Virus record (IMG/VR): IMGVR_UViG_3300030102_007626
Coordinates: 99,572 to 155,669 of that record
DNA length: 56,098 bases
DNA from: a virus
Direction: 5' to 3' (one strand)
Shown here in pieces: positions 5,723 to 7,890 of this stretch. Position 1 is the first letter of the stretch. Each line of letters begins with the position of its first letter. The notes beneath the pieces are model-generated. The model was not told the origin of the DNA. It was given only the letters and a program-made list of their open reading frames with translations, and searched no databases. The position numbers and the translations under genes were made by a program.

Positions 5723-6055
5723 ATGAAAAAAGTAAATGTAGTTAAATTAGGACGACCTGTTAATGTTAATAGTAAAAGACAAATTAGGTTGAGAGAATTA
5801 GAAGAAAAAAGAAAAAATGGAACTTTGAAAAGAGGACGACCTGTTAATGAAAATAGTGTTAGACAAAAGGAACTTGAAAGAAAAAAGTTTAATAGAGAAA
5901 ATGGAATTGAGTTAAGAGGTAGAAAAGTGAATCCTAATAGTGAAAGACAAATTAGGTTGAGAGAATTAGAAGAAAAAAGAAAAAATGGAACTTTAAAATT
6001 AGGACGACCTAAAAAAGTAAAGGTTGAAGATAGTAATGAAGTTGTAAATAAATAA
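5723..6055 (+). CDS. AT-hook-type repeat protein, candidate DNA binder
   Basis: A 110-residue very basic protein built from repeats. The AT-hook-like core occurs four times (LGRPVN, RGRPVN, RGRKVN, LGRPKK), separated by charged helices such as RQIRLRELEEKRKNGTLK. The GRP tripeptide inserts into the minor groove of AT-rich DNA in known AT-hook proteins. I infer a small DNA-binding protein, perhaps an early regulator or nucleoid-like protein acting on very AT-rich sequences such as the phage promoters. A 56-residue unit is duplicated (see the DNA repeat). The GRP codons keep their Cs (GGACGACCT) in an otherwise C-poor gene. Confidence 0.7.
   Translation: MKKVNVVKLGRPVNVNSKRQIRLRELEEKRKNGTLKRGRPVNENSVRQKELERKKFNRENGIELRGRKVNPNSERQIRLRELEEKRKNGTLKLGRPKKVKVEDSNEVVNK
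5775..5998 (+). repeat. direct repeat, 56 bp at 168-bp spacing, inside AT-hook gene
   Basis: Bases 5775-5830 recur at 5943-5998 with one mismatch (G at 5827, A at 5995). The 168-bp spacing equals 56 codons, so this is an in-frame duplication inside the AT-hook gene. Confidence 0.9.
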
Positions 6056-6535: not shown

Positions 6536-6561
6536 GTTGGAATATTAGTTTAAATAGATAG

Positions 6562-6585
6562 TTCGTATATTATAGTATAATTAAA
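6562..6585 (+). promoter_or_regulatory. early promoter-like motif, copy 18
   Basis: TTCGTATATTATA then GTATAATTAAA, 10 bp before the start at 6596. It would also transcribe the structured RNA at 6790. Confidence 0.8.
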
Positions 6586-6595
6586 AAAAAGAAAT

Positions 6596-6778
6596 ATGTT
6601 TGAGAAAAAAATGTTGTTAGGATTTAGTAAAGAGATAAAATTGGATTTGTTAGATAAAGCTAATAAACAAGGAGAACATGGTATAGTATTTCAGATGATG
6701 AAGATATTATTAGATGCACCTATAAGTGAAGGTGGTATTAGTACTGAGGAGATAAAAGAAATACTTGGTATGGAGTAA
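6596..6778 (+). CDS. small early protein upstream of a structured RNA
   Basis: A 60-residue protein, mostly helical (KEIKLDLLDKANKQ, VFQMMKILLDA, STEEIKEILGM), with no membrane segment. It is the last gene of the C-poor block. Its stop codon is only 11 bases before the start of a long inverted repeat at 6790, so the RNA element is probably on the same transcript. Function unknown. Confidence 0.65.
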   Translation: MFEKKMLLGFSKEIKLDLLDKANKQGEHGIVFQMMKILLDAPISEGGISTEEIKEILGME

Positions 6779-6789
6779 GAAATTGATAT

Positions 6790-6863
6790 TACTCACCTCG
6801 GAGAGTGGAATGACCAAGAAATGGTTGGGTTGCTAAAAAGAGAGGGTAGCAGCGAGGTGAGTA
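6790..6863 (+). ncRNA. candidate structured RNA, three-way junction
   Basis: An 11-bp perfect stem (TACTCACCTCG at 6790-6800 with CGAGGTGAGTA at 6853-6863) closes two smaller hairpins: GACCA/TGGTT with an AGAAA loop (6812-6826) and TGCTA/TAGCA (6831-6851). The base composition is much less AT-rich than the surroundings and no credible frame covers it. It is followed at once by an intrinsic terminator, so it may be the 3' end of the 6596 transcript or a separate small RNA. I do not recognise a known RNA family, and I looked for and did not find hammerhead core sequences. Confidence 0.5.
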
Positions 6864-6865
6864 TA

Positions 6866-6916
6866 GATATTTGGTTTTAGGGTTTTAGCCATCAAATTAA
6901 AACCCATATCTTTTTT
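6866..6916 (+). terminator. intrinsic terminator after the structured RNA
   Basis: GGGTTTTA (6880-6887) pairs with TAAAACCC (6898-6905). The helix continues after a 9-base bulge with GATAT (6866-6870) and ATATC (6906-6910), and six T follow directly (6911-6916). Confidence 0.75.
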
Positions 6917-6935
6917 AATTATACAATCGCCAACG

Positions 6936-6961
6936 GCTCTACATTAACCCAAGTGTAGAGC
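6936..6961 (+). other. hairpin in the 6779-6988 intergenic region
   Basis: GCTCTACA (6936-6943) pairs perfectly with TGTAGAGC (6954-6961) around a 10-base loop. It lies between the terminator and the next gene and has no T tract. It could be a leader structure for gene 6989 or part of the same RNA system. Confidence 0.5.
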
Positions 6962-6988
6962 TTTAGGTGACCAAAAAATAGAAAGTAT

Positions 6989-7240
6989 ATGGTAAAGAGA
7001 GGTATGGTAGCTACGATGCAAAAATTAGAGGCGCAATCATGGGTAGCTCAAGATGAGTGGAAAGAGTTATATGGTACAGATAGTAAACATTATCGCCACC
7101 TAGAAACACGTTGGAAAACATTGTACATGGTACTCAAAGCGTGTGGATACGATCCAGATTACGATCTACGTAATCAGATGCTCAGCCAAGATATCAAGGG
7201 TAGAGGTTTAGCGGGTGCTGGTTCGTATATTGTAGCATAA
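6989..7240 (+). CDS. early-region protein of unknown function
   Basis: An 83-residue protein with normal base composition and many Trp, Tyr and Arg residues (SWVAQDEWKELYG, HYRHLETRWKTLYMVLKACG), likely helical. It has no early motif of its own, so it is transcribed by read-through or from an unrecognised promoter. ATG at 7004 is an alternative start. Its last codons (GSYIVA) are formed by the next early motif (7222-7245), so coding sequence and promoter overlap. Confidence 0.6.
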   Translation: MVKRGMVATMQKLEAQSWVAQDEWKELYGTDSKHYRHLETRWKTLYMVLKACGYDPDYDLRNQMLSQDIKGRGLAGAGSYIVA

Positions 7241-7245
7241 TTAAA
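7222..7245 (+). promoter_or_regulatory. early promoter-like motif, copy 19, inside a gene end
   Basis: TTCGTATATTGTA then GCATAATTAAA, 10 bp before the start at 7256. It overlaps the last six codons and stop of the preceding gene. Confidence 0.75.
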
Positions 7246-7255
7246 AAGAAATAAC

Positions 7256-7492
7256 ATGAACATTTATAAAGTATACAGTACAGATGATTATGGTAGACCA
7301 GAAGATATTCTTGGTTATGTGAAAGCAGATAGTGAACATGATGCTAGAGTAAAGATGTCAATTGTGTTATATGGAGATGATGATACTGAGATTGTAACGA
7401 CTGGTTATTATGGAGCAAAGATGGTATCATCTGATGAGTATAACTTGGCACTCCAAACAGCTAAAATGGAGTTAGATAAATTTAATTTGTAG
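7256..7492 (+). CDS. last gene of the early array, unknown function
   Basis: A 78-residue acidic protein. An N-terminal beta-prone part (MNIYKVYSTDDYGRPED) is followed by a helix rich in Ala and charged residues (ADSEHDARVKMSIVL) and a C-terminal helix. The alternation resembles small phage proteins of an alpha/beta fold, but I cannot name a family. It is followed by about 400 bases without a gene. Confidence 0.7.
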   Translation: MNIYKVYSTDDYGRPEDILGYVKADSEHDARVKMSIVLYGDDDTEIVTTGYYGAKMVSSDEYNLALQTAKMELDKFNL

Positions 7493-7890
7493 ATAAGTAG
7501 AGTAGTAATACCCCTTTATGCCGTACCGCGTGCGGCGGTATATATATGGTATATGTATGGTAATACCGTACCACGCGCGCGGTCGTCAATACGCGGGTAT
7601 GTGGTAGAAGTCCATGGATTAGACACACTTATAAATCGTAAACGATCTACCAACCTCGATTAATATATACGAATATCCCCACGTTGTAAATCGCTTTTTC
7701 AACATGGAATTTTTGTGGTTTTTCCACGAGAATCAAATCTTTTTTCTTTAAAAATTTTTTGCATCGACGCAAGTATATACCTATATTTCTTTTGTTTTTA
7801 CCCAGATTGAAACCTAAATTTTTTCCCACATATGTATAGATACAGTTACAGATAATAGTTATACTTTCACTAACTAAAAACACATAAAAG
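7493..7890. other. intergenic region with GC-rich hairpin island
   Basis: About 400 bases without a credible + strand gene between the early array and the next cluster. Positions 7511-7600 are unusually GC- and CpG-rich for this genome. They contain TACCGC/GCGGTA, a 6-bp stem with a 5-base loop at 7524-7540, and a second CG-rich segment at 7565-7597. The rest is T-rich. It could hold an origin, a host-type promoter for 7891, or a structured leader; none can be proven here. A 78-residue open frame on the minus strand (7883-7647) is probably chance. Confidence 0.5.

Follow-up and report, generated by a model that had tools for sequence, protein, structure and literature searches.

The DNA analysed here (the window) comprises the final 56,098 nucleotides of a viral record of 155,669 bases. 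Its genes include those for a gp6-like baseplate wedge protein, a large terminase and a portal protein. The portal shares 59% identity with its counterpart in Flavobacterium phage vB_FspM_immuto, a cultured 160-kb phage from the Baltic Sea, and this identity, taken with the gene set, points to a large myovirus that probably infects a marine Flavobacteriia host. At the locus of interest, a promoter-like motif, a 60-aa ORF, a 74-nt three-way junction, an intrinsic terminator, a strong leader hairpin and an 83-aa ORF follow one another on the + strand (Table 1).

Table 1. Coordinates of the junction, its parts and the neighbouring elements in the window.
Feature	Position	Strand	Remarks
Promoter-like motif TTCGTATATTATAGTATAATTAAAAAA	6562–6595	+	Presumed start of the transcript carrying the RNA; putative function
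60-aa ORF, outside the RNA module	6596–6778	+	Directly 5′ of the RNA, on the same presumed transcript
Exchanged segment, 96 nt	6773–6868	+	In L004, 107 nt that include a tRNA-Gly(TCC) gene
Structured RNA, three-way junction, 74 nt	6790–6863	+	z score, paired changes, model R1
Closing stem, 5′ arm (10–11 bp with 6853–6863)	6790–6800	+	3 pairs changed on both sides, 1 U-A to U-G
Purine-rich linker, conserved, ends GGAAU/GGAUAG	6801–6811	+	
Hairpin 1, GACCA-AGAAA-UGGUU	6812–6826	+	Stem 6812–6816 with 6822–6826
Hairpin 2, 7 bp, 11-nt purine-rich loop	6829–6853	+	Stem 6829–6835 with 6847–6853
Closing stem, 3′ arm	6853–6863	+	
Intrinsic terminator	6880–6916	+	Kept in four relatives
Strong leader hairpin, separate module	6926–6970	+	5′ of the 83-aa ORF; near-identical in four relatives
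83-aa ORF, coding, mostly helical, no known family	6989–7240	+	88–92% amino acid identity in four relatives

A sequence-only reading had described positions 6790–6961 as one candidate structured RNA of 172 nt, free of genes and distinct in base composition. The elements that it named are all present: the perfect 11-bp closing stem, the two inner hairpins, the terminator and a further perfect 8-bp hairpin (6936–6943 with 6954–6961). No ORF of at least 40 aa covers the junction. The difference in composition holds against the 1.2 kb upstream (G+C of ~0.34–0.39 versus ~0.15–0.3), but extends to about position 7650 and is not specific to the RNA.

The promoter-like motif, TTYGTATATTRTAKTATAATTAAAAA, recurs in 13 near-identical copies between positions 2016 and 7246 of the window. 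The copies lie mostly directly 5′ of small ORFs, and most end ~10 nt before the start codon. The 60-aa ORF has homologues in two related contigs (L002 and L004) and no match in Pfam or PHROG; the junction begins 12 nt past its stop codon. Further upstream, a 110-aa ORF (5723–6055) is built of repeats (RQIRLRELEEKRKNGTLKRGRPVN) whose extent varies among relatives. The terminator pairs GGGUUUUA (6880–6887) with UAAAACCC (6898–6905) ahead of a U-run (6911–6916), and its z score of −2.0 is ordinary. In the leader hairpin (z −6.24), the 8 bp fold into 11 bp plus an outer 5-bp stem; this hairpin is nearly invariant in the four relatives, with no covariation support of its own.

Differences among copies of the 83-aa ORF are biased to third codon positions, and its AlphaFold model consists of helices (pLDDT 78). 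No relative was found among GenBank phages at E 0.1. The last codons of the ORF (SYIVA) are read from the promoter motif of the next gene; L005 lacks that promoter, and its copy of the ORF has another ending. In L004 (L004:1426–1489), a second copy of the end of the ORF and its overlapping promoter follows downstream, probably left by cassette recombination. Beyond this ORF, a non-coding stretch of ~180 nt (7505–7690) contains GC-rich inverted repeats and the strongest fold of the window (−31 kcal/mol). It is nearly invariant in L002, L004 and L005, and lies at a turn in the cumulative GC skew, between small early-type ORFs and structural genes.

Fold and homologues of the junction RNA

The junction (6790–6863) has a folding energy of −25.6 kcal/mol and a z score of −5.07, with 0 of 200 shuffles as stable; the whole 206 nt fold with a z score of −4.5. 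For the window sequence alone, the reverse complement of the junction folds nearly as well (z −6.14). Among 75-nt segments taken in steps of 15 nt, the one that folds most strongly lies away from the junction, at 7516, and therefore energy by itself would not pick out this locus. In a search of the window for perfect inverted repeats of at least 11 bp with at least 5 G/C and within 70 nt, the closing stem was the sole example, and order-1 Markov sequences averaged 0.23. This stem is 10 or 11 bp long, because C6853 is able to pair with either G6800 or G6829. In L002 and L005, the linker (6801–6811) may pair weakly with CCUC/CCUG to give an alternative hairpin; this pairing is broken in the window.

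A homologue search with the downstream 83-aa ORF recovered four viral contigs (L002, L003, L004 and L005). The junction is present in L002 (156 kb) and L005 (10 kb) and missing from L004, while L003 begins inside the later-hairpin region and so is uninformative. In a sequence-only MAFFT alignment of the window, L002 and L005, five of the 17 pairs in two stems changed on both sides, a count reached in 1 of 500 shuffles. Three of the five lie in the closing stem, which also has the U-A to U-G change, and two in hairpin 2, where two further pairs changed on one side. Across the 17 pairs, 100% of cells are paired, compared with 33–62% when the partners are slid by 1–3 columns, and RNAalifold arrives independently at the same junction. 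The individual members contain 2, 3 and 3 G-U wobble pairs, which would become A-C mismatches if read on the other strand; wobble pairs in all three thus favour the + strand as the functional RNA.

Conservation extends to the unpaired positions. The linker and loop sequence GGAAU..GACCA.GAAAUGG is retained across a 5-nt difference in junction length in L005, and phages with 11–23% difference at nearby positions have kept the loops. The loop of hairpin 1 is AGAAA in the window and GAGAAA in L005. The length difference in L005 excludes a conserved reading frame.

From these alignments, the junction is a structured RNA supported by covariation, and the compensatory changes bear out that part of the sequence-only reading. 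The support is good rather than overwhelming for three sequences, and comes essentially from one divergent sequence because two of the three members are close. The covariance model R1 retrieved one copy each in G000, G001 and G004, and none in the cultured relative immuto. The clear members are thus only three, all in related Flavobacteriia-type myoviruses.

No RNA family was thought to fit, and Rfam 15 indeed returned none at or above its gathering threshold across the whole window. Matches to Rfam snoRNA and csRNA families fell far below gathering scores. The tRNA families of Rfam gave none between 6500 and 7300 at E up to 5, and ARAGORN called no tRNA at the junction. Against GenBank phages, blastn found no match for 6560–7260 at its default limit, and weak chance matches only for 6800–6985 at E up to 10. 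In the genome contigs and 299 Flavobacteriaceae genomes, a sequence scan turned up no credible homologue, with one match at E 0.27 over 51 nt. Among the matches listed for a loose pattern, GACCAN{0,2}GAAATGGTNGG, most were chance matches and coding; besides chance matches, tighter core patterns found only L002, L005 and a further contig, L124. A search of the published literature found nothing on point for this RNA.

The slot shared with tRNA-Gly and the question of tRNA likeness

In L004, the slot of the junction is occupied by a tRNA-Gly(TCC) gene (L004:739–812) of equal size, 74 nt versus 74 nt. The blastn alignment with L004 breaks into two blocks at this site: 6530–6772 matches L004 469–707 and 6869–7270 matches L004 815–1219. 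Identity in these flanks is 84% upstream (the 60-aa ORF) and 92% downstream (the terminator, hairpin and 83-aa ORF), and the same terminator serves the junction RNA in the window and tRNA-Gly in L004. Conversely, L005 has other small ORFs upstream and keeps the junction, terminator and 83-aa ORF. As L004 replaces the junction only and leaves the flanks intact, the junction, terminator and later hairpin are separate modules, and the proposal of a single 172-nt RNA does not stand. Together with the change of upstream ORFs in L005, the swap also indicates that the junction is tied to neither neighbour as a cis-regulator. On this comparison of related contigs, the junction is an RNA gene in its own right, which occupies a ‘stable-RNA slot’ and can be exchanged there for a tRNA. 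Elsewhere in these records, ARAGORN identified five tRNAs (Ala, Gln, Asp, Glu and Leu) in that of L002, tRNA-Gly alone in the 57-kb record of L004, and only a tRNA-Ser in the remainder of the record containing the window.

The junction RNA resembles phage tRNA genes such as this tRNA-Gly(TCC) in slot, strand, terminator, length and closure by a long terminal stem. It differs from them in having three helices, with no cloverleaf and no anticodon loop; in hairpin 1, the 7-nt anticodon loop with U33 is absent, the loop being AGAAA, GAGAAA or GAAA and variable in length. The three clear members also have no T-loop, and ARAGORN and the Rfam tRNA models are negative. A cloverleaf with the linker as D-arm fits L002 and L005 and was rejected since it is broken in the window sequence. 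Likewise, an anti-Shine–Dalgarno reading of the stem sequence CACCUC was discarded, as L005 has UUUACC.

A fourth phage contig, L124, contains a 33-nt stretch that resembles the junction core inside a tRNA-like scaffold. A pattern search located it, as ACCUGUGGCUAGGAAUGACCAGAAAUGGUUGGG, in an unrelated phage, where it has a gene on either side. This core, close to that of the window and with a GAAA loop, sits within a 9-bp terminal stem and a canonical T-arm (AUUGG-UUCGAAU-CCAAU). ARAGORN finds no tRNA in the L124 RNA, and the tRNA-Sec model scores 14 bits only. Since model R1 does not recover L124 (no match at E up to 10), it is not counted as a member. The shorter core pattern gave 15 chance matches; the longer was estimated to give ~0.1, and far fewer when ACCU is required at the same 12-nt distance, figures that are optimistic because L124 was already known when the pattern was refined. 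L124 is best treated as a lead, a single case linked to the family by its core sequence alone.

The L124 RNA lies directly 5′ of a DUF3127/ssb gene, and the same position in Tenacibaculum phage Gundel_1 holds an annotated tRNA-Tyr (68787–68896; L326:1064–1173), which is 110 nt long, has two T-arms and is ARAGORN-negative. Flavobacterium phage immuto has an 86-nt annotated tRNA-Cys (L273:20246–20331), also ARAGORN-negative, with a normal acceptor stem and T-arm and an odd core. Such aberrant tRNA-like RNAs may be a habit of these phages. Like the junction RNA, they have a long terminal stem into which a non-standard core is inserted. Their T-arm is still canonical (GGUUCGAAUCC), where the window RNA instead has a 7-bp arm with an 11-nt loop, and neither the Gundel_1 nor the immuto core has any sequence in common with it. 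An origin of the junction by derivation from, or mimicry of, a tRNA is possible, given the slot, the length and one divergent relative.

Candidate roles of the junction RNA

The favoured reading, at a probability of roughly 0.5, is that in this large Flavobacteriia-type myophage the junction encodes a small non-coding RNA, which is trimmed and acts in trans. The transcription, trimming and trans action of this RNA are inferred as follows. A transcript would start at the phage promoter near 6562, pass through the 60-aa ORF and the 74-nt junction RNA, and end at the terminator. Host RNases would presumably trim the RNA at both ends, as for a tRNA in the same slot, and the trimmed product would persist as a stable RNA. 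Contacts would probably be made through the parts that are both exposed and conserved: the purine-rich linker and the loops of hairpin 1 (GAAA type) and hairpin 2 (11 nt). In phage T4, the tRNA clusters encode stable small RNAs of unknown function, such as RNA C and RNA D, which are transcribed with the tRNAs. The junction is likened to them by description, not by sequence, and T4 infects other hosts.

The position of the junction, 12 nt past a stop codon and just before a terminator, would also suit a 3′-UTR stability element with no separate life, in which the junction and terminator shield the small upstream mRNA from 3′ exonucleases. This explanation is unlikely, as the RNA is kept in L005 despite different upstream ORFs, a tRNA that is itself cut from its transcript can substitute for it, and a shield would not need a linker and loop conserved across a change in length.

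The shared slot and length and the canonical T-arm of the L124 relative could instead mark a former tRNA gene that is decaying or drifting neutrally. However, compensatory changes that maintain the stems, and loops conserved despite 11–23% nearby difference, would be unexpected under neutral decay, and neither Rfam nor ARAGORN detects similarity to a tRNA; this origin for the present-day sequence is improbable.

A riboswitch or attenuator, with the junction as ligand domain and the terminator as output controlling the 83-aa ORF, would account for the order of the three elements, and in the 206-nt fold UUUGGU (6870–6875) can pair with ACCAAA just 5′ of the ORF. Control of this kind is more improbable still: L004 has a tRNA in place of the junction and keeps the terminator, leader hairpin and ORF at ~92% identity, the junction and terminator arms were not seen to overlap in a way that would make an antiterminator, and Rfam gives no match. 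Finally, a DNA-level element (a cruciform, origin or recombination site) is very improbable despite the perfect 11-bp inverted repeat, the exchange of the segment between phages and the start of contig L003 beside it, as the G-U pairs of all three members and the U-A to U-G change between relatives would be mismatches in DNA or on the other strand, and the loops are conserved as well as the arms.

Returning to a trans-acting RNA, a broader and rather doubtful proposal is that of a Flavobacteriia-phage RNA class with a shared core (roughly ACCU..GGAAU-GACCA-(N)GAAA-UGGUU-GGG) on different terminal scaffolds, tRNA-like in L124 and not so in the window. Its members might replace tRNA genes as tRNA mimics or decoys, directed against host tRNA-handling enzymes or tRNA-cutting defence systems.

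The locus thus presents a covariation-supported RNA outside Rfam, and between close phages its gene and a tRNA gene replace each other one for one. Provided that it is transcribed, this RNA would be a concrete candidate, simple to delete, for a phage RNA of tRNA size with a role outside translation. Annotation of phage ‘tRNA’ regions usually relies on nothing but tRNA finders, and therefore stable RNAs in them that are not tRNAs would be systematically missed.
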